Shown: piece by piece, positions 1-40,748 of the stretch
Position numbering within the stretch: position 1 is the stretch's first letter
How the letters are laid out: the number at the start of each line of letters is the position of its first letter
Assembly: GCF_000826525.2 (NCBI RefSeq)
Contig: NZ_LN651328.1
Coordinates: 80,432-144,431 of the forward strand
DNA: 64,000 bases
Direction of reading: 5' to 3'
DNA from: Mobilicoccus massiliensis
GTDB lineage: Bacteria; Actinomycetota; Actinomycetes; Actinomycetales; Dermatophilaceae
Translations under genes and position numbers: made by a program
The notes under the pieces: generated by a model
The model's input: only the letters and a program-made list of their open reading frames with translations
The model's database searches: none
What the model was told of the DNA's origin: nothing

Positions 1-821
1 CGGAGGGCCGCTCCCTCGTCGCCGGCCGCAAGAAGACCGGGCGCAAGGCGCCTGCCATGTCCTTCGTCTCGTGGCGCGAGGGGCTCACGCGTGTCGTCAA
101 CGCCCTCGCCGACGACCTCGACGTACGCACCGACGCACCCGTCGAGCGGATCGAACGTCGCGACGACGGCGGTTATCGGCTCGCGATCGGCGGGGGGTCG
201 CCCACCACGATGGAGGCCGATCAGGTCGTCCTCGCGGTCTCCGGTCGGGGTGCCCAGAAGATCCTCGCCGAGCTCGCGCCACGGCCCGCCGCCCTCGTCG
301 GGCAGACCGAACGGGCCGACGTCGCGACGATCGTCCTCGCCTACCCCCGACACGTCGTCGAGGCGCTACCCGCGTTCCAGGGCACGGGCATCCTCGTGCC
401 CTCGTCGGTGGGATCGCTGCTCAAGGCCGCGACGTTCCTCTCGACCAAATGGCCGCACCTCGACCACCCCGACCTGTATTTCTGCCGCCTCTCGGTCGGC
501 CGCGCCGGAGACTCCCGGCTCGCCTCCCTCGACGACGACGCGCTGCTCACCCGGGTGCGCGCCGACCTCAAGGCGTTCATCGGGCTCGACGTCACGCCGC
601 GACACACGCACGTCCAGCGGTGGCCGGCGACGATGCCGCAGCTCACCGTGGGTCACCCCGACCGGCTCGCGGCCGCCCGCGCCGAACTCCCACCGGGGCT
701 CGTCCTCGCCGGCTCCTCCTACGACGGGGTGGGCATCGCCTCCTGCCTCGGCTCGGCGAACCGCGCCGCCGACGCCGTCCTCGCCTCGCTCACGACCGCA
801 CCAGGAAAGGCGCACGCATGA
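1..821 (+). CDS. hemY: Coproporphyrinogen/protoporphyrinogen oxidase, C-terminal part (cut by window start)
   Basis: The reading frame is open from base 3, so the gene starts before the window and about 272 codons are visible. The end of the protein, reading GLVLAGSSYDGVGIASCLGSA followed by ANRAADAV, is the typical C-terminal FAD-binding segment of HemY-type oxidases. The segment near the left edge resembles their substrate-domain entry. In Gram-positive bacteria this flavoenzyme oxidises coproporphyrinogen III to coproporphyrin III in the cytoplasm, ahead of iron insertion. Its stop overlaps the next start by four bases (ATGA), so it is translationally coupled to the radical SAM gene. The family is clear; the exact substrate is inferred from the phylum. 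Confidence 0.9.
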   Translation, partial: EGRSLVAGRKKTGRKAPAMSFVSWREGLTRVVNALADDLDVRTDAPVERIERRDDGGYRLAIGGGSPTTMEADQVVLAVSGRGAQKILAELAPRPAALVGQTERADVATIVLAYPRHVVEALPAFQGTGILVPSSVGSLLKAATFLSTKWPHLDHPDLYFCRLSVGRAGDSRLASLDDDALLTRVRADLKAFIGLDVTPRHTHVQRWPATMPQLTVGHPDRLAAARAELPPGLVLAGSSYDGVGIASCLGSANRAADAVLASLTTAPGKAHA

Positions 822-2044
822 CGACCATCGCCCCCGACAAGGCGGTCCGCCGGCTCAAGCACGACATCGACGACCGGCCGATGATCGTCATCTGGGAGGT
901 CACCCGCGCCTGCCAGCTCGCCTGCAAGCACTGCCGGGCCGAGGCCCAACCCCAGGCGCATCCCGAGCAGCTCACGACCGAGCAGGGCAAGGCACTGCTG
1001 GACGACATCGCCTCGTTCGGCAAGCCGCTGCCCATCGTCATCCTCACCGGCGGCGACCCCTTCGAACGTCCCGACCTGTACGAGTTGCTCTCGCACGGCG
1101 CGAGCCTCGGCCTGCACATGGCGCTCTCACCCTCGGTGACGCCCAAGCTCACGCAGGAGACCGTGCGCCAGATGCACACCGCGGGCGCCAATTCGATGTC
1201 GCTCTCGCTCGACGGCGCACGGCCCGAGACGCACGACGCGTTCCGCGGCTTCTCCGGCGTGTTCGACGACACGCTGCGCGCCGGCGGCTGGATGCGCGAC
1301 GACAAGGTGCGCCTGCAGGTCAACTCCACCGTCACCCGCGACACGATGGCCGAGCTGCCCGATCTGCTGCGCATCATGTTCGAGCTCGACGTGCACCTGT
1401 GGAGCCTGTTCTTCCTCGTGCCCACCGGCCGTGGCCAGCAGCTCAAGACCCTCACCGCCGGTGAGATCGAGGACGTCCTGCACTGGATGGCCGACATCGC
1501 CGACATGATCGCGGTCAAGACGACCGAGGCGCCCCACTTCCGTCGCGTCCTCGTCCAGCGCGCCCGTGCCCAGGCCGAGGGCCGCGACCCCCGCGACCTC
1601 GAGAACCGCGGCGAGACCTACGACTACCTCACCCGCGAGACCGAACGGATGCTCACCGAGTGGGAGGCCGACGGACACACTCGCCCCCAGCGCAAGCCGC
1701 GCCCGCCGATCGACATCAACTCCGGCCGCGGCTTCGCGTTCGTCGACCACCGCGGCAACGTCTACCCCAGCGGCTTCTTCCCCCAGCACTGCGGCAACGT
1801 CAAGGAGCTCGGCTTCACCGCCGTCTACCGCGACTCCGAGCTGCTGCGCTCCCTGCGTCGCCCCGACACCTTCCACGGCAAGTGCGGCATGTGCGAGTTC
1901 AACCAGATCTGCGGCGGATCCCGCTCGCACGCCTACGCGGTCACCGGCGACATCCTCGGCAGCGACCCCACGTGCGTGTACATCCCCGCGGCCATGCGGG
2001 AACCCCACGACCGCCCCGGCCACGCCGTGCAGGCCCCGGCCTGA
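818..2044 (+). CDS. Radical SAM/SPASM protein next to hemY
   Basis: This 408-residue protein has the radical SAM cluster motif C-x3-C-x2-C at Cys32, Cys36 and Cys39, followed by a GGDPFERPDL stretch typical of the SAM-binding fold. A C-terminal SPASM-like region is rich in cysteines (CGMCEFNQICGG and a further Cys near the end) and should hold an auxiliary Fe-S cluster. It resembles the TIGR04053 group of radical SAM/SPASM proteins. The ATG overlaps the hemY stop. Coupling to hemY suggests a role in the last heme steps, for example oxidative decarboxylation of coproheme, which is a role AhbD-type radical SAM enzymes play elsewhere. That function is inferred from context; the family call is firm. 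Confidence 0.88.
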   Translation: MTTIAPDKAVRRLKHDIDDRPMIVIWEVTRACQLACKHCRAEAQPQAHPEQLTTEQGKALLDDIASFGKPLPIVILTGGDPFERPDLYELLSHGASLGLHMALSPSVTPKLTQETVRQMHTAGANSMSLSLDGARPETHDAFRGFSGVFDDTLRAGGWMRDDKVRLQVNSTVTRDTMAELPDLLRIMFELDVHLWSLFFLVPTGRGQQLKTLTAGEIEDVLHWMADIADMIAVKTTEAPHFRRVLVQRARAQAEGRDPRDLENRGETYDYLTRETERMLTEWEADGHTRPQRKPRPPIDINSGRGFAFVDHRGNVYPSGFFPQHCGNVKELGFTAVYRDSELLRSLRRPDTFHGKCGMCEFNQICGGSRSHAYAVTGDILGSDPTCVYIPAAMREPHDRPGHAVQAPA

Positions 2045-2049
2045 GATCG

Positions 2050-2121
2050 CCGAGACAGGCCCTTTCACCCGCGCCGGCCACCCGGGCAGGCGCCTTCTCC
2101 GGGTGAGAGCGCCTGTCTCGG
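2050..2121. repeat. 3'-end palindromic repeat, copy A
   Basis: Arms at 2050-2070 and 2101-2121 pair over about 20 bp with one or two mismatches; the outer 11 bp (CCGAGACAGGC / GCCTGTCTCGG) are perfect. It lies between the convergent ends of the radical SAM gene and the SnoaL-like gene and could terminate both. It belongs to the family also seen near 2.6, 9.7, 31.8, 35.8, 46.2 and 47.9 kb. Confidence 0.75.
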
Positions 2122-2153
2122 GGTCTTTCGCTGGCTCTCGATGCCTCTCGGTG

Positions 2154-4282: not shown

Positions 4283-4487
4283 GGAGGTCTCCTCGAATCG
4301 GCGCCGGCGGCGCGAGGGACGGCAAGAGGTCCCACTCTATCGGGGCGGCGCCGACGCACTTCGCCGGCAGTGACGCACAGGCGGCGTGGGAGCGAGGTCG
4401 CGGCAGGCGCTTCGGCGTGCTCGCACCGAAACCGTGACGGTAGGGTGCATTCACGTAATGATTGACACGTCATCGAAAGGGATTCAG

Positions 4488-5046
4488 GTGAAGATCGCCA
4501 TCCTCATCGGCAGCACCCGCCCCGGCCGCGTCGGAGAATCCGTGGGCCGGTGGGTCCACGAGATCGCCTCCACCCGCGACGACGCCACCTACGACCTCGT
4601 CGACGTCGCAGAGTACGACCTGCCACTGCTCAACGAGCCGGTGGTGCCCGGTGCGGCGAACCGCGAGTACGAGAACGAGACCACGCGGCGCTGGAGCCAG
4701 GTGATCGACGGCTACGACGGTTACGTGTTCGTCACCGCCGAGTACAACCACGGCATCCCCGCGGCGTTCAAGAACGCGTTCGACGTGCTCTACCCCGAAT
4801 GGGGCCGGAAGGCGGTCGGGTTCGTCGCCTACGGCGCCGACAAACGGAGTCCGGTCGGTGGAGGCGTGGCGGGGCGTCGTGGCCAACGCCTACCTGTACG
4901 CCACGCGTGCGCAGGTCGGCCTCAGCACGTTCACCGAGTTCACCGACGGCGAGGTCACCCCCGGGGAGCGCAAGAACGCCGGCGTCCACACCCTGCTCGA
5001 CGAGCTCGTGCCCCTCGCCCGCGCCGTCAAGACGCTGCGCGACTGA
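4488..5046 (+). pseudogene. NADPH-dependent FMN reductase, frameshifted
   Basis: The first part, from GTG 4488 after a GAAAGGG ribosome site, reads as a flavodoxin-fold reductase (ILIGSTRPGR phosphate-binding loop, then AEYNHGIPAAFKNAFD). Near 4842 the frame is lost. The rest of the family pattern (VRSVEAWRGVVANAYLY to the end) continues in the next frame and stops at 5046. Removing one A from the AAA at 4842-4844 would give a continuous protein of about 185 residues reading YGADNGVRSVE across the join. It may be a true decay mutation, a slippery-run variant or a sequencing error. Intact members reduce FMN or quinones with NADPH. Confidence 0.8.
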
Positions 5047-5129
5047 CGCACCGCGGCGCGCCCTCGACGGGCGCCGCTCGAGTTCGTTCCGCGCCCGCCA
5101 CCCCCACCCGGGCGGGACGGGCGCGTGTC

Positions 5130-12524: not shown

Positions 12525-14069
12525 ATGCCTGCCGATCCCGTCGAGTTGGTGGCGCCGATCACCGGTGTGATGGTGCCCATCGAGGAGGTGCCAGACCCGG
12601 TCTTCGCCAAGAAGATGGTGGGCGACGGTTTCTCCGTCTATCCCCTCGTCGGGGTCCTCGTGGCGCCGGTCGACGGGGAGGTGGCCCACGTCCACGACTC
12701 GCGCCACGCCGTCACGGTCCGCTCGACCGAGGGGCTCGAGGTGCTCATGCACATCGGCCTCGACACCGTGCGGATGAACGGCGAGGGCTTCGAGGTCCAG
12801 GCCGAGGTGGGCACGAAGGTCCACGTCGGCGACGAACTCGTGCGATTCGACCTGCCGTTGGTCGCGCAGCGCGCCGAGAGCGTCCTCACCCAGGTCGTCA
12901 TCGCCAACGGCGATCGCGTGGCCTCGATCGACCCCGTCATCGGCATGGTGAACGCCGGTCGAGACGTCGCCGCACGGGTGACGCTCGCGGGCGAGGCTCC
13001 GGCCGGGGCCGCCTCGGGCGCAACCGGCACCCCGCAGCCGACCGCGTCGCAGACCGGCGGTGACGCGCCGATGCTCACCTCGGACGAACTGACGATCCTC
13101 AATCCCACCGGCCTGCACGCCCGCCCGGCGGCGACTCTCGTCAACCTCGCCAAGGGGTTCGCCGCCGACGTGCAGTTGCGGCATGAGGGCGAGTCGGCCA
13201 ACGCCAAGAGCATCATGGCGGTCATGGCCATGGGTCTGCGCAACGGCGCGACGGTGCAGCTCGCCGCCGCCGGTCCGGATGCGCGGGAGGCGATCGACGC
13301 GCTCTCGGCCGGCATCCGCGAGGGCCTGGGCGAGGAGGGCGCCGGCGCACCCGCCGCATCCACCGGGACCGGGGCGGCTGCGGCTGCCGATGTCCGTCCG
13401 ACGGACGACGGTGCAGCTCGCCGCCGCCGGTCCGGATGCGCGGGAGGCGATCGACGCGCTCTCGGCCGGCATCCGCGAGGGCCTGGGCGAGGAGGTCGCC
13501 GGCGCACCCGCCGCATCCACCGGGACCGGTGCGGCTGCGGCTGCCGATGTCCGTCCGACGGACGCCGCGTCGAGCGGGGGCGGAGCCACCGCGGTGGGAG
13601 CCGCCCCGACCGCACCCGAGGAGTCGGGGGACCCGAACCTGCTGCTGGGCGTCTCCGCCTCCCCCGGCCTCGGCGTCGGCACCGTCGTGCAGATCCGCCC
13701 GCACGTCGTCGACGTCGTCGAGCACGCGCAGGACCCGGCCCTCGAACGGCGCCGGCTCGACGATGCCGTCGACCGCGCGACGGCGCGCATCACGGCCTTG
13801 CGCGACTCCCTCGACGGGCAGCCCGACAAGGCGGCGATCTTCGACGCGCACGCCGAGATCCTCGCCGACCCCGAGTTGCTCGACCAGGCCCGCAATGGCC
13901 TTCAGCAGGGCAAGAGCGCGGAGTTCGCCTGGCGCGCCGCCTACTCGTCCTACGCCGACACGCTCGCCGGTCTCGACAACGAGGTCCTCGCCGGCCGCGC
14001 CACCGACGTGCGCGACGTCGGTCAGCGGGTGCTCGAGGAGCTCACCGGTCAGCACCGCGAGCAGCGTGA
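12525..14069 (+). CDS. PTS EIIA-HPr portion of an EIIA-HPr-EI fusion, frame broken after HPr
   Basis: From ATG 12525 (site GAGAGGA) the protein begins with a glucose-type EIIA domain of about 165 residues. His61 and His76 (VLMHIGLDTVRMNGEGF) are the two phosphotransfer-site histidines. A linker leads to HPr from about residue 182, with His198 in GLHARPAATL and the regulatory serine in NAKSIMAVMAMG. HPr ends in the first copy of a 157-bp tandem duplication. Because 157 is not a multiple of three, the frame then runs into about 220 residues of low-complexity arginine-rich sequence and stops at 14069. The meaningful part ends near 13407. With only one repeat copy, the frame would continue into EI. 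The domains are certain; the expressed form is not. Confidence 0.8.
   Translation: MPADPVELVAPITGVMVPIEEVPDPVFAKKMVGDGFSVYPLVGVLVAPVDGEVAHVHDSRHAVTVRSTEGLEVLMHIGLDTVRMNGEGFEVQAEVGTKVHVGDELVRFDLPLVAQRAESVLTQVVIANGDRVASIDPVIGMVNAGRDVAARVTLAGEAPAGAASGATGTPQPTASQTGGDAPMLTSDELTILNPTGLHARPAATLVNLAKGFAADVQLRHEGESANAKSIMAVMAMGLRNGATVQLAAAGPDAREAIDALSAGIREGLGEEGAGAPAASTGTGAAAAADVRPTDDGAARRRRSGCAGGDRRALGRHPRGPGRGGRRRTRRIHRDRCGCGCRCPSDGRRVERGRSHRGGSRPDRTRGVGGPEPAAGRLRLPRPRRRHRRADPPARRRRRRARAGPGPRTAPARRCRRPRDGAHHGLARLPRRAARQGGDLRRARRDPRRPRVARPGPQWPSAGQERGVRLARRLLVLRRHARRSRQRGPRRPRHRRARRRSAGARGAHRSAPRAA
13251..13407 (+). repeat. 157-bp tandem duplication, copy 1
   Basis: First of two head-to-tail copies, covering the end of HPr and the Ala/Thr-rich linker. 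It begins ACGGTGCAGC and ends CCGACGGACG. It differs from copy 2 at two positions (G versus T in GAGGAGG/TCGCC and in ACCGGG/TGCGG). Confidence 0.95.
13408..13564 (+). repeat. 157-bp tandem duplication, copy 2
   Basis: Second copy, directly abutting the first, with two substitutions in 157 bases. The unit length shifts the reading frame by one, so HPr and EI no longer share a frame. Confidence 0.95.
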
Positions 14070-15318
14070 CCTGCCCGCCGACTCGATCCTCGTCGCCGAG
14101 GAGCTCACCCCGTCCGACACCGCGCAGCTCGACCCGTCCAAGGTCGCAGGGTTCGCCACCACCACCGGCGGCGCCTCCAGCCACGTGGCGATCATCGCCC
14201 GCAGCCTCGACATCCCCGCCGTGGCCGGCATCGACGCACGCGCCCTCGACATCCCCGACGGCACGCGCGTCATCCTCGACGGCGCCAAGGGCTCGCTGCA
14301 GCAGGGGGTGAGTGACGACGAGGTCCATGCCCTGCGGCAGCGACAGGAGCGCATCGCCGCACGCCGCGAGGCCGACCTGGCGGCCGCGTTCGAGGAGGCG
14401 CGCACGACCGACGGTCACCGTGTCGAGGTCGTCGCCAACGTCGGCAACGCCGCCGACGCCGCGCAGGCGCAGAAGTACGGCGCCGAGGGAGTCGGGCTGC
14501 TGCGCAGCGAGTTCGCGTTCCTCGAGCGGTCCTCCGCCCCGAGTGAGGACGAGCAGGCGGACCTGTACTCCGACGTCGCCCGCGCCCTCGCACCCGGTCA
14601 GCGACTCGTCATCCGCACTCTCGACGTCGGGGGTGACAAGCCGCTGTCGTACCTGCCGATCGCGCCGGAGGAGAACCCCTTCCTCGGCGTGCGGGGCGTC
14701 CGCGTGGGCCTCGAACGCCCCGACGTACTGCGTACCCAGTGCCGCGCGATCCTGCGGGCGGCCGACGCCGGCGCCGAGCTCAACGTCATGTTCCCGATGA
14801 TCGCCACGGTCGACGACTTCCGCCGGGCCAAGGCGATCTTCGACGAGGAGTCCCAGTCGCTCGGCGTCGCCGGTGTGCCGCTCGGCATCATGGTCGAGGT
14901 CCCCTCGGTCGCGGTCATGGCCAAGCAGTTCGCGCGCGAGGCCGACTTCTTCAGCGTCGGCACGAACGACCTCACGAGTTACACGCTTGCCATGGACCGC
15001 GGCCACCCGCGCCTCGCCCCGCAGGTCGACCCGTGCAACCCCGCGGTGCTCGCCCTCATCGGCCGGGCGGCCCAGGCCGCGCACGACGAGGGCAAGTGGC
15101 TCGGGGTGTGCGGCGGCATCGCCTCCGACGTGCAGGCCGTGCCCATGCTGCTCGGGCTCGGGGTCGACGAACTGTCGTGCACCGTCCCTGCGATCCCCGC
15201 CGTCAAGGCCGCCGTCCGCGCGTGGTCGCTCGGTGACTGCCGCGACCTCGCCGCCCGCGCCCTGCAGGCCGACACGGCCCGCGAGGTGCGCGACCTCAAC
15301 CCCATCGACGAGGCCTGA
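13594..15318 (+). CDS. ptsI: PTS enzyme I (PEP-protein phosphotransferase) portion
   Basis: The EI frame is open across copy 2 of the duplication and runs to 15318. Enzyme I moves phosphate from PEP to HPr in the cytoplasm. Seen in order: the N-terminal HPr-binding region (LLLGVSASPGLGVG), the phospho-His loop TTTGGASSHVAIIARS, the PEP-binding barrel (GGDKPLSYLP, ENPFLGVRGVR, NDLTSYTLAMDRG) and the C-terminal Cys loop GVCGGIASD. Start uncertain: GTG 13594, after a GGGGGCGGAG stretch, gives 574 residues, the usual EI length. GTG 13411 is another option. The ancestral form was probably fused to EIIA-HPr upstream. EIIBC follows 25 bases after the stop. Confidence 0.85.
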   Translation: MGAAPTAPEESGDPNLLLGVSASPGLGVGTVVQIRPHVVDVVEHAQDPALERRRLDDAVDRATARITALRDSLDGQPDKAAIFDAHAEILADPELLDQARNGLQQGKSAEFAWRAAYSSYADTLAGLDNEVLAGRATDVRDVGQRVLEELTGQHREQRDLPADSILVAEELTPSDTAQLDPSKVAGFATTTGGASSHVAIIARSLDIPAVAGIDARALDIPDGTRVILDGAKGSLQQGVSDDEVHALRQRQERIAARREADLAAAFEEARTTDGHRVEVVANVGNAADAAQAQKYGAEGVGLLRSEFAFLERSSAPSEDEQADLYSDVARALAPGQRLVIRTLDVGGDKPLSYLPIAPEENPFLGVRGVRVGLERPDVLRTQCRAILRAADAGAELNVMFPMIATVDDFRRAKAIFDEESQSLGVAGVPLGIMVEVPSVAVMAKQFAREADFFSVGTNDLTSYTLAMDRGHPRLAPQVDPCNPAVLALIGRAAQAAHDEGKWLGVCGGIASDVQAVPMLLGLGVDELSCTVPAIPAVKAAVRAWSLGDCRDLAARALQADTAREVRDLNPIDEA

Positions 15319-15343
15319 GCCTCCTGCTCCGAAGGAACACACC

Positions 15344-17437
15344 ATGGCAGACAGCCCAGCGAGTGCCATCGTCGACGCAGTCGGTGGACCCTCGAACATC
15401 ACGAGCCTCACGCACTGCGCGACCCGGCTTCGGTTCCAGCTCGCCGACGGCTCGGTCGTCGACACGGCCGAGGTCGAGGCCATCCCCGGCGTCATGGGCG
15501 GTGTGCCCCAGTCGGGCAACCGCTACCAGGTCGTCATCGGCGGCGCGGTCGAGCAGGTCTACAACGACATCAAGAAGCTGCCGGCGATGACGGAGTCCGG
15601 CGGCGCGGCGGGCGGCCCCAGGTCCGACGACGACGTCAAGGCCGAGATGCGCGCCAAGGGGCCGCGCGGCAACCGGGAATGGCTCGACAACTTCTTCGAG
15701 TTCCTCTCCGACAGCTTCCGTCCGATCATCGGCGCCCTGCTCGGCGCCTCGTTGTTCATCACGTTCATGGCGTTGATGTCGACGCTCGGCGTCATCGGCA
15801 ACTGGGCCGACCCGCGTGTCTCGCTCGAGGGCGGCTGGGCCGCCGTCAACCTCATGTGGCAGGGCGTGTTCACGTTCCTGCCGCTGATGATCGCCTACAA
15901 CGCGAGCAAGAAGCTCGGCGCCGACCCGTGGGTGGGCTTCGCGATCATGGCCGTGCTGCTGCTGCCCGGTTTCACCGCCCTCGGTGATCAGGCCCACACC
16001 ACCACGGTGTTCGGCTCCGAGGTCAAGATCCTCGACGTCTGGGGACTCCCCCTGACGGTCTTCGGCTACGGCTCGTCGGTGTTCCCGCCACTGCTCATGG
16101 CCGCTGTTCTCGGCCCGCTCTACTCGGCGCTGAAGAAGATCATCCCGAGCAACGTGCAGCTCATCTTCGTGCCGTTCCTCGCGATGCTCATCATGATCCC
16201 GCTGACGGCGTTCCTCATCGGTCCGATCGGCGTCTACGTCGGTGCATGGCTGGGTCAGGTGCTCAAGTCGATCAACGACATCAGCCCGTTCATCTTCGCC
16301 ATCGTCATTCCGCTCGCGTACCCGTTCATGGTGCCGCTCGGTCTGCACTGGCCCATCAACGCGATCATGCTGCTCAACATCCAGACCCTCGGCTACGACT
16401 TCATCCAGGGCCCCATGGGTGCGTGGAACTTCGCGTGCTTCGGCGCCACCGCCGGCGTGCTCATGCGCTCGATGCGGCACAAGGACGTCCAGATGCGGCA
16501 GACGGCCACCGGTGCCCTCGCCGCCGGCCTGCTGGGCGGCATCTCCGAGCCGAGCCTCTACGGCATCCACCTGCGGTACAAGCGGATCTACCCGCGGATG
16601 CTCGTCGGCTGTCTCATCGGTGGCATCATCATCGGCCTGGGCGGTGGGTTGCACACGCAGGCGTTCGTGTTCACGTCGCTGCTGACCATCCCGGCCTTCG
16701 ACAACATCCCGCTCTACGCGGGCGCGGTCGCCGCCGCGTTCTTCACGGCGATGGCGCTGGTGTACTTCAGCGACTACATGACGCCGGAGCAGCGCGCCGA
16801 GGCCGAGGCCGTCCAGCGAGCCGGGCTGGTCGACCCCGCCATCCCGCCGGCCGCGGGTGAGACCCCGGCCGCCGACGGCGCCGTGGCCCCGGGCGCGGTC
16901 GGCGCCGGCGCGGTCGGTGCAGGAACCGGAGCCCGCCGGCCGGCGGTGCCGGAGCTCGCCGAGGGTTCGGAGCTCATCGAGATCGGTGCCCCCGTCGACG
17001 GTGACGTCGTGCCGCTGACCCAGGTGCCCGATCCGGCGCTGGCCGAGGGCATCGTCGGTCCGGGTGTCGCGGTGGTCCCCACGGGCGACACCGTCGTCGC
17101 ACCCGCCGCCGGCACCGTGCTCCTCACCTCGCAGGACGGCACCGCCGTCGGTCTCGCCCTCGCCAACGGCGTCGAACTGCTGCTGCGCGAGGTCGTCGAC
17201 GGCGAGGAGAACGAGGCGGCGCACCCGCGCGTGCAGGCGGGCGACACCGTGGAGACGGGCACCCCGCTGCTCACCCTCTCGCCCGCAGAGGGTCGCCGGT
17301 TCGTCGCGATGGTCGTCACCAACCGGCGCGACTTCGCCTCGGTCGACGCCTCGGTGGCCGGGGCGGCCACGAGCGGTACGCCGATCCTCGCCGTCGCCAC
17401 CCGCCCGGTGGCCGATCGGACGGGTGCCACCGTCTGA
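15344..17437 (+). CDS. PTS EIIBC permease of the glucose/beta-glucoside superfamily with degenerate EIIA
   Basis: A 697-residue sugar permease. The EIIB domain has its phosphorylated Cys25 in LTHCATRLRF. EIIC spans roughly residues 115-480 with about ten membrane segments and the GISEPSLYGIHLRYKRIYPR signature. The C-terminal 145 residues resemble EIIA (GAPVDGDVVPLTQVPDPALAEGIVG), but both active histidines are gone: the site reads VELLLREVVDGE instead of VEVLMHIG. Phosphate should therefore come from the separate upstream EIIA. The sugar is not certain; B-C-A order and the EIIC signature favour beta-glucosides, sucrose or trehalose. It follows ptsI closely, with a GAAGGA ribosome site. Confidence 0.92.
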   Translation: MADSPASAIVDAVGGPSNITSLTHCATRLRFQLADGSVVDTAEVEAIPGVMGGVPQSGNRYQVVIGGAVEQVYNDIKKLPAMTESGGAAGGPRSDDDVKAEMRAKGPRGNREWLDNFFEFLSDSFRPIIGALLGASLFITFMALMSTLGVIGNWADPRVSLEGGWAAVNLMWQGVFTFLPLMIAYNASKKLGADPWVGFAIMAVLLLPGFTALGDQAHTTTVFGSEVKILDVWGLPLTVFGYGSSVFPPLLMAAVLGPLYSALKKIIPSNVQLIFVPFLAMLIMIPLTAFLIGPIGVYVGAWLGQVLKSINDISPFIFAIVIPLAYPFMVPLGLHWPINAIMLLNIQTLGYDFIQGPMGAWNFACFGATAGVLMRSMRHKDVQMRQTATGALAAGLLGGISEPSLYGIHLRYKRIYPRMLVGCLIGGIIIGLGGGLHTQAFVFTSLLTIPAFDNIPLYAGAVAAAFFTAMALVYFSDYMTPEQRAEAEAVQRAGLVDPAIPPAAGETPAADGAVAPGAVGAGAVGAGTGARRPAVPELAEGSELIEIGAPVDGDVVPLTQVPDPALAEGIVGPGVAVVPTGDTVVAPAAGTVLLTSQDGTAVGLALANGVELLLREVVDGEENEAAHPRVQAGDTVETGTPLLTLSPAEGRRFVAMVVTNRRDFASVDASVAGAATSGTPILAVATRPVADRTGATV

Positions 17438-36968: not shown

Positions 36969-38999
36969 TCAGCGCAGATGCCCCACCTGGGTGGCGGTGC
37001 CGACGATGACGTCGGACACGTCGTACGCCGTCGCCGTCGGAGGAAGGAGGTTGACGGGGTGCCGGAGGCCGAGCAGCACCGGGCCGTAGACCGACGCCCC
37101 GGAGCTGCGGCCCACGGCGCGGATCGTCACCTGGGCGGTCGCGTGGTCGGTGAACACGAAGATCGTCGCGTTGCCGCCGGCGTCCCCGCCGGCCGATCGC
37201 CTGGCGGCCGCCTCGAGGAGGACGGGGCCCTCGACGGCGAGATCGGGGCGCCGGTCGCGGATGCGGTCGCCCGCCGCGGCGATGCGCTCGTGCTCGTCGC
37301 TGCCGGCCTCGGTGCGGCGGCCGGTGACGAGCGCGACGCGGGGGGTGATCCCGACGTTCTCGGCGGCCTCGACGGCGTTGAGCGCCATCGTCACGAGCGT
37401 GTCGGTGGGACGCTCCTCGTGGAGCAGGCAGTCGGTGTACAACACGGTCTCGTCGGGCAACGCGAGCACGTGCGCCGAGGTGATGACGGGAACGTCCTCA
37501 CGGAGTCCGACGATCTTCTCCGCGAGCCCGATGACCTCCTGTTCGCTGCGCCCGAAGCCGGTGACCAGCCCGTCGGCCACCCCGCGGTCGACGAGGTCCA
37601 ACGCCACGACGAGCGGATCGGCCGGATCGACGTCGGCGGCCCCGGATCGCGTGAGGATCTGTTCGAGCCGGCGCCGGTCGGCCGGCTCCTGGGCGGCGGG
37701 GTCGACGATGCGGATCCCCAGCGGCAGCGTGAGGTCGAAGGTGGCGGCGACGGATTCGATGTGCCCCGGGTCGCCGACGAGCAGACACTGCTGGACCCCG
37801 CGTTCGTACAGCGCGCACACCGCGCTGAGCACCCGGGGATCCTCGGCGTCGGTGACCGCCATGCACGTGTCCAGCCGCGTCGCCTCGCTGACGAGCCGTA
37901 GCCGGAAACCGGCCGGGGTGACCCGCTGAACCCGTTTGATCCGGGGCACCTCGTCGAGCCACGCCTCGTCGAACGCCGCCGCGGCGCCCTGCATGACGAG
38001 TCGCGCGCGGTCCTCGTCGTCGGCCGGGATGTCGGGGTCGAGGCCCACGACGAGTCCCGTCGCCTCGAACGTCAGCTCGTCGGTGAAGAGCAGGGGCAGG
38101 CCGTTCTGCAGGGCGGGACGGCAGAGCCGCAGCACGTCGGGGTCGGGACGCACCCCCGCGGTGATCAATAGCGCCGCCAGACGAGTGCCGTTCTGTTCGG
38201 CCAGTGCCGCCGAGAGCAGCACCTCGTGGCGGTCGCCCGGGACGATGACGAGCCGCCCGTCCTCGAGGTGCGGCAGGAAACCGGGAATGCTCTGGGCCGC
38301 GACGACCGATCCCGTGACGCGCCGGCGTCCGTCGCCGGGATTGAGGACCTCGAACCCCAGATGATGCACGAGGTCGGTGACCCGCGGGTGGGTGAACTCC
38401 GGGCGCTCCCGCAGGACGGCGACGACGCGGTGCCCGGCCTCCTCGAGTGCCTGCTCGAAGCGTCCGTCGTCCTCGCCGGCGGGCACGCGGTTGAGCATGA
38501 CCCCGAGCACCCGGGTGCCCCCGGAGACGCGGTAGTCGTGCGCCACGGCCGACACCTGCTGCACGAGACGATCGGGGGTGAGGCCGGCCGTGGAGACGAC
38601 GAGGACGACGTCGGCGTCGAGCGTGCGCGTCACCTCGACGTTGAGGTGCCGCGCATGCACCTGGCGCAGGTCGGGCGCCACCCCCTCGACGACGACCACG
38701 CGGTGGGCGCCGAGGGTGTCGGAGGCCATGGCGAGGACCTCCTCCATGAGCTCCTCCTCGCGCCCGTCGGCGAGCATCTCCTCGACGTGGGAGAACGGGA
38801 TCGGCGGCACCGGCCGCAACGGCGTCGCGAGCCGGAACAGCTCGGCGGCCGGATCCTCGCCACTCGTCATCGACCGGCCGAACGGCTTGACGTACCCGAC
38901 CGACACCCGACGCAGATCGAGCGCGTGGGTCAGGCCGAGACAGGCCGTGGTCACCCCCGCGTTGTGGTTGATCGGGACGACGACGATGCGCAGCGACAT
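36969..38999 (-). CDS. pta: Phosphate acetyltransferase, long form
   Basis: A 676-residue Pta that interconverts acetyl-CoA and acetyl phosphate. It has an N-terminal P-loop/dethiobiotin-synthetase-like domain, a DRTGG domain (about 215-330) and the C-terminal catalytic domain from about residue 360 (CMAVTDAEDPRVLSAV, VTGFGRSEQEV, VLYTDC, GGNATIFVFTDHATAQ). Start ATG 38999 gives the standard long-form length. Acetate kinase is not next to it: menC follows after a minisatellite. A short intergenic gap separates it from the NUDIX gene upstream. Confidence 0.95.
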   Translation of the reverse strand: MSLRIVVVPINHNAGVTTACLGLTHALDLRRVSVGYVKPFGRSMTSGEDPAAELFRLATPLRPVPPIPFSHVEEMLADGREEELMEEVLAMASDTLGAHRVVVVEGVAPDLRQVHARHLNVEVTRTLDADVVLVVSTAGLTPDRLVQQVSAVAHDYRVSGGTRVLGVMLNRVPAGEDDGRFEQALEEAGHRVVAVLRERPEFTHPRVTDLVHHLGFEVLNPGDGRRRVTGSVVAAQSIPGFLPHLEDGRLVIVPGDRHEVLLSAALAEQNGTRLAALLITAGVRPDPDVLRLCRPALQNGLPLLFTDELTFEATGLVVGLDPDIPADDEDRARLVMQGAAAAFDEAWLDEVPRIKRVQRVTPAGFRLRLVSEATRLDTCMAVTDAEDPRVLSAVCALYERGVQQCLLVGDPGHIESVAATFDLTLPLGIRIVDPAAQEPADRRRLEQILTRSGAADVDPADPLVVALDLVDRGVADGLVTGFGRSEQEVIGLAEKIVGLREDVPVITSAHVLALPDETVLYTDCLLHEERPTDTLVTMALNAVEAAENVGITPRVALVTGRRTEAGSDEHERIAAAGDRIRDRRPDLAVEGPVLLEAAARRSAGGDAGGNATIFVFTDHATAQVTIRAVGRSSGASVYGPVLLGLRHPVNLLPPTATAYDVSDVIVGTATQVGHLR

Positions 39000-39123
39000 G
39001 TGGCTCCTCCCGCGCCGGAACGCACCGGCACGTCGACGGACATCCGCGAGCACCCCGGCGCGGCCGGCTCGCGAACACCTGGTCGATGCCCTATCGACCG
39101 CGAAGAGCCCGGTCGTAGCCGAC

Positions 39124-39624
39124 TCACCGCTGCGCGGAACGGAACTCCACGTGCGCGGGCGGGTCGAGTGCGAGGCGCACGGTCTCGGCCTGACGGGCAG
39201 GCATCGGCGGCAACGCGTCGACCGGCCACCACCCCGCCTCGGTGGACTCGTCGTCGCCGACGCGGGGCTCGCCTTCGACCCAGCGGCAGCGGAACGCGTG
39301 GTCGAGGTAGTCGGAGACGTCGCCGTTGGGGTAGGTGACCGGACCGACGACGCGCACGGCGACGAGTCGCTCGACCTCGATCCGCACGCACGCCTCCTCG
39401 GCGGCCTCGCGCACCGCGGCCTCCGACGGCAGCTCGCGCGGATCCACCAGGCCCGTGATCGGCGTGTAGGTGCCGTCGTCGCTCCGCCGGACGAGCAGCA
39501 CGAGCGGCGGGCCGTCGGGACGCTGCGGATCGTCCCTGAACACCACCGCCGAGGTTCCGATGAGCCACAGCGGCGCGGTGCCGACGTGCGATCGCAGCCA
39601 GGCGACGTACTCGGGGATCGGCAT
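39124..39624 (-). CDS. NUDIX hydrolase
   Basis: A 166-residue protein with a Nudix box at GLVDPRELPSEAAVREAAEEACV. The pattern G-x5-E-x7-REUxEExGU is kept except that the last Gly is Cys. The rest (TSAVVFRD at the start, AGWWPVDALPPMP near the end) is typical. NUDIX enzymes hydrolyse nucleoside diphosphate-linked substrates; the one here is unknown. A -10 element lies six bases before the ATG. Confidence 0.9.
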   Translation of the reverse strand: MPIPEYVAWLRSHVGTAPLWLIGTSAVVFRDDPQRPDGPPLVLLVRRSDDGTYTPITGLVDPRELPSEAAVREAAEEACVRIEVERLVAVRVVGPVTYPNGDVSDYLDHAFRCRWVEGEPRVGDDESTEAGWWPVDALPPMPARQAETVRLALDPPAHVEFRSAQR

Positions 39625-39636
39625 GACTCCACCTTA
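39625..39636 (-). promoter_or_regulatory. Close -10 element of the NUDIX gene
   Basis: TAAGGT at 39636-39631 followed by GGAGTC and the ATG at 39624. Confidence 0.45.
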
Positions 39637-39690
39637 GGACCGGCTCACCCTCGGGCCCGGCGTCGACACCGCGCGCTCGCGACACCACGT

Positions 39691-39755
39691 GCACCCGACA
39701 CCCGCCGGTGCCGCGGTCGGACCGGGTGTCGGTGCCCGCTTGTACGCTGAGGCCC
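39691..39755 (+). promoter_or_regulatory. menB: menB upstream hairpin and leaderless-type -10
   Basis: An imperfect stem (39691-39704 with 39723-39735, one bulge) is followed by TACGCT at 39743-39748, seven bases before the menB ATG. Confidence 0.45.
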
Positions 39756-40748
39756 ATGGACACCACCCCTGCCGACGAACCCTCGATCAACCCGTTCGAT
39801 CCGCAGGCGTGGCAGCAGGTGCCGGGGTTCGATTTCACCGACGTCACCTACCACCGCAGCGTGCTCGAGGGCCCCGTGCCGGGGCGCACACTGGGCGCGG
39901 TGCGTATCGCCTTCGACCGACCGGAGGTGCTCAACGCGTTCCGCCCGCACACCGTCGACGAGCTCTACCGGGCGCTCGACCACGCACGCATGACGCCCGA
40001 TGTCGGTGTCGTGCTCCTCACCGGCAACGGGCCGGGCCCCGAGGGCACGGGGGCCGCGGGCCAGTGGGCCTTCTGCTCGGGTGGGGATCAACGTATTCGT
40101 GGGCGCTCGGGCTATCAGTACGCTTCGGAGGAGGCCACGGCCACCGGTGACGAGACGGGCAGCAGCGTCGACGAGGCCCGGGCCAAGGCCGAGGGCGGGC
40201 GGCTGCACATCCTCGAGGTGCAGCGCCTCATCCGCACGATGCCCAAGGTCGTCATCGCCGTCGTCCCCGGCTGGGCGGCCGGGGGCGGTCACTCCCTGCA
40301 CGTCGTGTGCGACCTCACCATCGCCAGCCGCGAGCACGCCCGGTTCAAGCAGACCGACGCCGACGTGGGCAGTTTCGACGCCGGGTACGGCAGCGCCTAC
40401 CTCGCCCGCATGGTGGGGCAGAAGTTCGCCCGCGAGATCTTCTTCCTCGGCCGCTCGTACTCGGCCGAGCACATGCACCACATGGGAGCCGTCAACATCG
40501 TCGCCGACCACGCGGCGCTCGAGACCGAGGCCATCACCGTCTCCCGCGAGATCCTCGGCAAGTCGCCGCAGGCCCAGCGCATGCTCAAGTTCGCGTTCAA
40601 CCTCGTCGACGACGGGCTCATGGGCCAGCAGGTGTTCGCCGGGGAGGCGACCCGTCTGGCGTACATGACCGACGAGGCCGTCGAAGGTCGCGATCAGTTC
40701 CTCGAGAAGCGCGACCCCGACTGGTCTCCGTTCCCCTGGTACTTCTGA
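39756..40748 (+). CDS. menB: 1,4-Dihydroxy-2-naphthoyl-CoA synthase
   Basis: A 330-residue crotonase-fold enzyme closing the naphthoquinone ring in menaquinone synthesis. Diagnostic segments: VRIAFDRPEVLNAFRPHTVDEL, the oxyanion-hole AFCSGGDQRIRGRSGY, VVPGWAAGGGHSLHVVCDLTIAS, KQTDADVGSFDAGYGSAYLAR with the catalytic Asp, and the C-terminal GRDQFLEKRDPDWSPFPWYF that reaches the neighbouring subunit. An N-terminal extension of about 25 residues is usual in actinobacteria. Confidence 0.97.
   Translation: MDTTPADEPSINPFDPQAWQQVPGFDFTDVTYHRSVLEGPVPGRTLGAVRIAFDRPEVLNAFRPHTVDELYRALDHARMTPDVGVVLLTGNGPGPEGTGAAGQWAFCSGGDQRIRGRSGYQYASEEATATGDETGSSVDEARAKAEGGRLHILEVQRLIRTMPKVVIAVVPGWAAGGGHSLHVVCDLTIASREHARFKQTDADVGSFDAGYGSAYLARMVGQKFAREIFFLGRSYSAEHMHHMGAVNIVADHAALETEAITVSREILGKSPQAQRMLKFAFNLVDDGLMGQQVFAGEATRLAYMTDEAVEGRDQFLEKRDPDWSPFPWYF

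Follow-up and report, generated by a model that had tools for sequence, protein, structure and literature searches.

Reviews describe the radical SAM enzyme AhbD as an alternative to ChdC (HemQ) in the coproporphyrin pathway (PMC7242693, PMC12670364), and ahbD can lie with hemY/hemH/hemQ (PMC10548856). A 2024 paper presents ChdC as having no structural similarity to AhbD, and its oxygen-independent counterpart as still unknown (PMC10965808). As described in PMC10452713, the AhbDs of non-methanogenic archaea, that of a haloarchaeon included, keep the motifs CX3CX2C and CX2CX5CX20-38C and carry a glutamate and serines in the positions where the cysteines of AuxI would be; SuiB was the best match of the AhbD model in the same paper. 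For Haloferax volcanii, PMC5746218 reports ahbD (HVO_2144) among nirK (HVO_2141), a blue copper protein gene (HVO_2145) and norB (HVO_2147); according to the same source, deletion of ahbD strongly reduced anaerobic growth only, which protoheme restored, and deletion of the ChdC-type pitA slowed aerobic growth. NirJ, in turn, acts on the propionates of tetrapyrroles (PMC7242693).

We analysed a stretch of 64,000 nt from the genome of Mobilicoccus massiliensis (the window), in which, as an earlier note on this DNA had claimed, hemY is overlapped by a radical SAM gene (hereafter rSAM). The features considered were the following.

3 to 821, plus strand: 3′ portion of hemY (cgoX, coproporphyrinogen oxidase), truncated at the window edge (PF01593 at 3.8e-28; PRK11883/TIGR00562).
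818 to 821, plus strand: ATGA, in which the hemY stop and the rSAM start overlap, read directly from the sequence.
818 to 2044, plus strand: rSAM gene of the TIGR04053 family, encoding a predicted AdoMet-dependent coproheme decarboxylase of 408 aa.
911 to 934, plus strand: codons of CQLACKHC (residues 32-39), the CX3CX2C radical SAM cluster motif, with three Cys invariant in 54/54 aligned proteins.
1883 to 1975, plus strand: codons of residues 356-386, CX2CX5C-X2-S-X17-C, the single auxiliary-cluster set, with four Cys and Ser368 invariant in 54/54.
2045 to 2125, plus strand: hairpin 3′ of the rSAM gene, with no T run, from the RNA fold of 2044-2125.

The whole hemY corresponds to contig C19:79837-81252 and, with the start chosen in this analysis, encodes 471 aa that scored 201.8-201.9 bits against TIGR00562 (cut-off 97.85), which identifies it as HemY/CgoX. 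It was the only match of the genome above the TIGR00562 cut-off and the only one that a 9-row HemY model gave at E<=1e-40, no second hemY being found by either search. The ATGA overlap is likely to couple the translation of hemY and rSAM.

The rSAM protein matched the full TIGR04053 model of NCBIfam with 508.4 bits (1.2e-152, cut-off 395) and is thus a member of this family; among Pfam models it matched the Radical_SAM core (PF04055) alone. Its score against the equivalog model of AhbD (heme b synthase), TIGR04545, was 316 bits and, since the cut-off is 500, it is not filed there, although an AhbD-like function may still hold. TIGR04053 is an unnamed sister family of AhbD. We consider it quite probable, judging from the sequence comparisons given below, that hemY-rSAM is a two-gene terminal heme module, in which rSAM would be an AdoMet-dependent coproheme decarboxylase that works at low oxygen beside ChdC. 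With the AhbDs of Methanosarcina barkeri and Desulfovibrio (TIGR04545), which belong to the siroheme-dependent pathway, the rSAM protein shares the radical SAM core, the C-terminal CX2CX5C...C motif and the predicted reaction on coproheme; it differs from them in having none of the AuxI cysteines that PMC10452713 describes in both, and in that its gene adjoins hemY and the genome also encodes ChdC and ferrochelatase.

After AhbD, the next models were NirJ2 (191 bits) and NirJ (185 bits), both of heme d1 synthesis and of the same radical SAM subgroup as the rSAM protein, which scores lower against them, and the AhbC model matched too. These matches would fit a protein acting on another tetrapyrrole, or altering coproheme otherwise (a monovinyl stop, or a NirJ-like side-chain-modified heme), as would the denitrification genes found near several homologues. 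We regard this as improbable: the AhbD score is far above those of NirJ2 and NirJ, rSAM is co-located with hemY and cpfC, which together lead to coproheme, and the rSAM protein query gave no second match in the genome at E<=0.001, hence no sign of a partner AhbC or NirJ. Likewise the surroundings of the hemY-rSAM pair showed no heme d1 genes, nor did the same query reveal any genome-wide. As for the denitrification genes, they lie near only a minority of the loci outside the order of the source organism, because nirK-like genes were found near 20, norB near 14 and nosZ near 2 of the 80 loci compared (retained out of 457).

The cluster ligands were examined on an alignment of 54 proteins, which were TIGR04053 members or close relatives from the order of the source, haloarchaea, Thermus, Deinococcus and others. 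Precisely, the alignment was made of 38 of the 45 rSAM places described below (the copy of G002, the second copy of G066 and those of G138, G192, G345, G362 and G415 are omitted) and of 16 other proteins, 5 of them with neither a TIGR04053 score nor such an annotation. Seven Cys were invariant in 54/54, as was Ser368, with Glu218 in 53/54 and Ser318 in 44/54. The designation of the protein as SPASM in the earlier note therefore stands in part: it has the CX3CX2C motif (32/36/39) and one auxiliary-cluster set (356/359/365/386), but not the full eight-cysteine SPASM, one C-terminal four-Cys set being invariant. The auxiliary spacing C365-X20-C386 falls within CX2CX5CX20-38C, Ser368 stands where AuxI would carry a cysteine and Glu218 is at a putative AuxI position, so that the protein has the motif of the non-methanogen AhbDs as it is described in PMC10452713. 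The same Ser/Ser/Glu pattern was present in 9/9 haloarchaeal proteins.

The predicted structure of the rSAM protein had a mean pLDDT of 86.5 and a pTM of 0.86, with residues 34-42 (the N-terminal cysteine loop) below 50, and its nearest solved folds were PqqE and SuiB. The substrates of PqqE and SuiB are peptides. The fold would therefore also suit an enzyme that matures a small protein (RiPP) by radical SAM chemistry, a role that NCBI labels suggest for haloarchaeal neighbours: of 71 haloarchaeal loci with flanks of at most 6 kb, 34 (L055-L123) have a homologue of the 'CGCGG rSAM-modified RiPP' in the vicinity of TIGR04053, in 16 of these 34 within about 120 bases upstream of rSAM, and Htur_1727-type genes are present in 14 of the 71. 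At E<=1e-3 neither type had a homologue in the initial 12 kb of the window or in 40 loci from actinobacteria or Chloroflexi, and the bare letters CGCGG occurred in three short frames of those loci (L188, L191, L193). Moreover, since hemY and rSAM overlap, there is no room for a precursor between them, and the rescue of the Haloferax ahbD deletion by heme, as reported in PMC5746218, also argues against a peptide substrate. For the lineage of the window a RiPP maturase role thus appears unlikely, and we give very little credence to it as the explanation of rSAM. If TIGR04053 is a heme synthase, it is the RiPP label that may be mistaken, and a role as heme-handling accessory is conceivable for the small protein.

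An experimentally studied enzyme can be connected with this family through Haloferax. Five Haloferax homologues scored 497-502 bits against TIGR04053 and only 330-343 bits against TIGR04545, and three Haloferax proteins were 48-49% identical to the rSAM protein of the window. More widely, 22 haloarchaeal genome copies had 45-51% identity to it and one divergent copy 41%, and the TIGR04053 copies on haloarchaeal plasmids had 42-46% over 92-95% of its length. The order nirK - DUF2249 - rSAM - halocyanin - norB was found in 6 of 11 Haloferax loci; of the other five, one was without a norB match, one had the nirK-like gene beyond norB, two were on cut or short contigs and one had none. H. volcanii was not among the 80 loci compared; as a control it matched TIGR04053, two of the three matching controls (which two is not indicated) being above the cut-off. 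From the gene order in the sister species and this control match we strongly infer that HVO_2144 belongs to TIGR04053. The comparison with HVO_2144 extends to the sister-species counterparts in the matching cluster, which are TIGR04053, and to the ChdC-type enzyme that H. volcanii also carries; it ends at the neighbours, which are nirK and norB rather than hemY, and at the coproheme of H. volcanii, which is thought to derive from siroheme.

The presence of a ChdC-type enzyme is also what distinguishes our result from the proposal of the earlier note, in which the radical SAM protein stood where chdC often lies and might provide an alternative last step of heme synthesis, a functional chdC elsewhere being named as the finding that would speak against it. 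The general premise holds, as hemY was directly upstream of chdC in 16/16 chdC loci from rSAM-negative relatives. An intact chdC is nevertheless present on contig C5 (C5:264587-265153), with 246 bits against PF06778 and, as an open frame, 343.4 bits against HemQ_actino NF042928 (cut-off 235). Because of this gene, rSAM does not replace chdC; the replacement is ruled out both here and more generally, as chdC was found in 40 of 41 rSAM-positive genomes. What the presence of chdC refutes is the replacement and not the chemistry, because H. volcanii, as far as PMC5746218 describes it, relies on one of the two enzymes in the presence of oxygen and on the other in its absence. A radical SAM coproheme decarboxylase of AhbD-like type is still the most likely function, but not as a stand-in for chdC. 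The search for hemH that the same note had suggested gave one ferrochelatase, at C5:229735-230682. ChdC and the rSAM protein have the same predicted substrate and product; ChdC differs in being peroxide-dependent and, here, in lying on a separate contig from hemY-rSAM.

These counts were taken over a 78-genome panel from the order of the source, composed of 41 rSAM-positive genomes (among them G002, whose match is cut short and below the TIGR04053 cut-off) and of those 37 of 43 rSAM-negative genomes that were at least 90% complete. In this panel chdC was present in 40/41 rSAM-positive vs 34/37 rSAM-negative genomes, and ferrochelatase in 41/41 vs 36/37; the absence of chdC in G176 is not trusted, because this genome is in 430 contigs. 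We examined the chdC loci of 16 of the 34 chdC-positive rSAM-negative genomes and of 14 of the 40 rSAM-positive ones, plus that of the present genome. In the rSAM-positive set hemY preceded chdC in 6 of the 14 loci; in M. massiliensis it did not, and no hemY was present beside chdC in C5:255000-274999. Next after chdC in that region come a LigD-type polymerase gene, a gene for an ATP-dependent DNA ligase on the opposite strand and an IS110 transposase.

A search of 396 genomes of the order gave TIGR04053 in 33 of them. Together with a first, smaller set, this made 45 rSAM places in 41 genomes; for the places first seen in the 396-genome search the flanks were taken at 1.5 kb at first and wider for many of them later, and hemY was then placed genome-wide. 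In this way hemY was found to adjoin rSAM at 21 of the 45 places, which belong to 20 of the 41 rSAM-positive genomes and to four families of the order. The gene order varies, being hemY-rSAM in M. massiliensis, rSAM-hemY in G309 and rSAM-hemY-cpfC in G407, in which chdC sits with a second cpfC elsewhere in the genome. On one Chloroflexi contig hemL, chdC, rSAM, hemY and cpfC all run in one direction (chdC, hemY and cpfC were placed by tblastn and hemL by model, and about 1.1 kb between chdC and rSAM is unassigned). In G331 rSAM is within 13 kb of hemL, hemB, hemY, cpfC and chdC. One rSAM copy of G008 lies beside a NorB gene. The neighbours of some rSAMs without hemY (CstA, an ABC transporter, a cobalamin-independent synthase domain) gave no functional lead.

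On contig C54 of G066 the hemY-rSAM pair is present twice, with identical scores and opposite orientations (13678-16211 and 37266-39799), which points either to an inverted duplication of recent date or to an artefact of the assembly. The plasmid record NZ_CP029056.1 (L049), 2.9 kb long and assigned to Campylobacter jejuni, carries a TIGR04053 gene that groups with those of Deinococcus, and is probably foreign DNA or a mis-assigned contig.

At 24 of the 45 rSAM places there is no hemY next door, as would be expected if the two were accidental neighbours, hemY having merely moved beside an unrelated radical SAM gene. To this explanation we attach hardly any probability, since the two genes are paired at the other 21 places, in four families and in both orders, as well as on the Chloroflexi contig, and since the partner HemYs form one lineage that co-diverges with rSAM. 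The pairing is not chance. In the HemY tree 20 rSAM-linked HemYs lay on one side of a branch with a support of 100/100, vs 22 others, 21 of which are next to chdC; for this count the Chloroflexi HemY was considered as rSAM-linked despite the chdC in the same run, and that of G331, with both rSAM and chdC in the region, as chdC-linked. The tree was made without G002 and G010 (a piece at a contig end), and G009 entered it as a 285-residue piece. The distances among HemYs and among rSAM proteins in 20 pairs were correlated with a Mantel value of 0.78, and 0 of 2000 permutations were as high. The rSAM-linked hemY was the only one found (E<=1e-40) in 13 of 20 pair-bearing genomes, including the present one; in the other 7 a second hemY is also present. 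We infer that the hemY-rSAM pair spread as a module, which in several lineages would have taken over from an older hemY. As for rSAM in the window, its GC and GC3 are in line with the neighbourhood, and composition therefore gives no mark of foreign origin.

For the use of such a module at low oxygen we considered nitrate respiration. A narG gene, which is present in M. massiliensis, was found in 24/33 rSAM-positive vs 127/363 rSAM-negative genomes (p 4e-5, kinship ignored); the narG and rSAM searches each covered 396 genomes drawn by the same rule, which were taken as the same set. In the 78-genome panel the counts were 31/41 vs 14/37. There are also 9 of the 33 rSAM-positive genomes without narG. 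HemY is usually linked to oxygen, which makes it an odd fit with an anaerobic module. It need not, however, preclude anaerobic use, because CgoX of S. aureus works both with and without oxygen, as PMC6620371 describes.

Taken as steps, the proposed route would be the following. By homology, HemY (CgoX) would oxidise coproporphyrinogen III to coproporphyrin III, and CpfC, encoded on contig C5, would insert the iron. The rSAM protein would then decarboxylate coproheme in an AdoMet-dependent reaction of the kind treated in PMC10452713 and PMC11306076, and in the presence of oxygen ChdC would carry out this step with peroxide. By analogy with the AhbD of H. volcanii, the radical route would probably serve low-oxygen or nitrate-respiring growth.

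We also put forward, as a tentative and rather doubtful extension, that hemY-TIGR04053 is a module that is complete in itself, moves horizontally and finishes heme independently of oxygen, and that its HemY lineage has become specialised to pass electrons elsewhere than to oxygen (to quinone or to the rSAM partner). Under this extension the ancestral chdC-linked hemY would have been displaced in some lineages, M. massiliensis included, and one HemY would feed two decarboxylases chosen by oxygen.

That AhbD can provide an alternative last step has been published before; the assignment of TIGR04053 and the hemY lineage look new, the latter with the greater likelihood. In the literature searched (titles and abstracts) we found no assay of a bacterial TIGR04053 protein and nothing on an rSAM-linked hemY lineage, and the term TIGR04053 occurred in none of the papers searched. 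The family is a concrete candidate for an oxygen-independent coproheme decarboxylase in this order of high-GC bacteria and in some other phyla, and such a role would supply the function that this family, unnamed at NCBI, has so far been without. With its distinct hemY lineage the pair offers an example of a pathway with two interchangeable last steps. It is also a warning that, in organisms bearing the pair, loss or inhibition of ChdC does not necessarily block heme synthesis fully.

Downstream of rSAM, the fold of 2044-2125 had an energy of -57.3 kcal/mol, vs a shuffled mean of -34.8 (z -6.65). The hairpin was absent from the output of a simple terminator scan, and is perhaps the end of the hemY-rSAM transcript. 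A second, related strong hairpin is at 2610-2661 (fold z -6.0 and -7.0 on its two strands), and the two lie on either side of a SnoaL-like gene (2154-2528). Their arms resemble GACAGGCG-YTYTCACCCG, with 4 arm matches vs 0.46 expected, and the two hairpins are perhaps a repeated bidirectional terminator. Further along the window, at about 4450-5060 on the plus strand, the reading frame of a gene that presumably resembles NADPH-dependent FMN reductase shifts in its second half, which is either a broken gene or a sequencing error.
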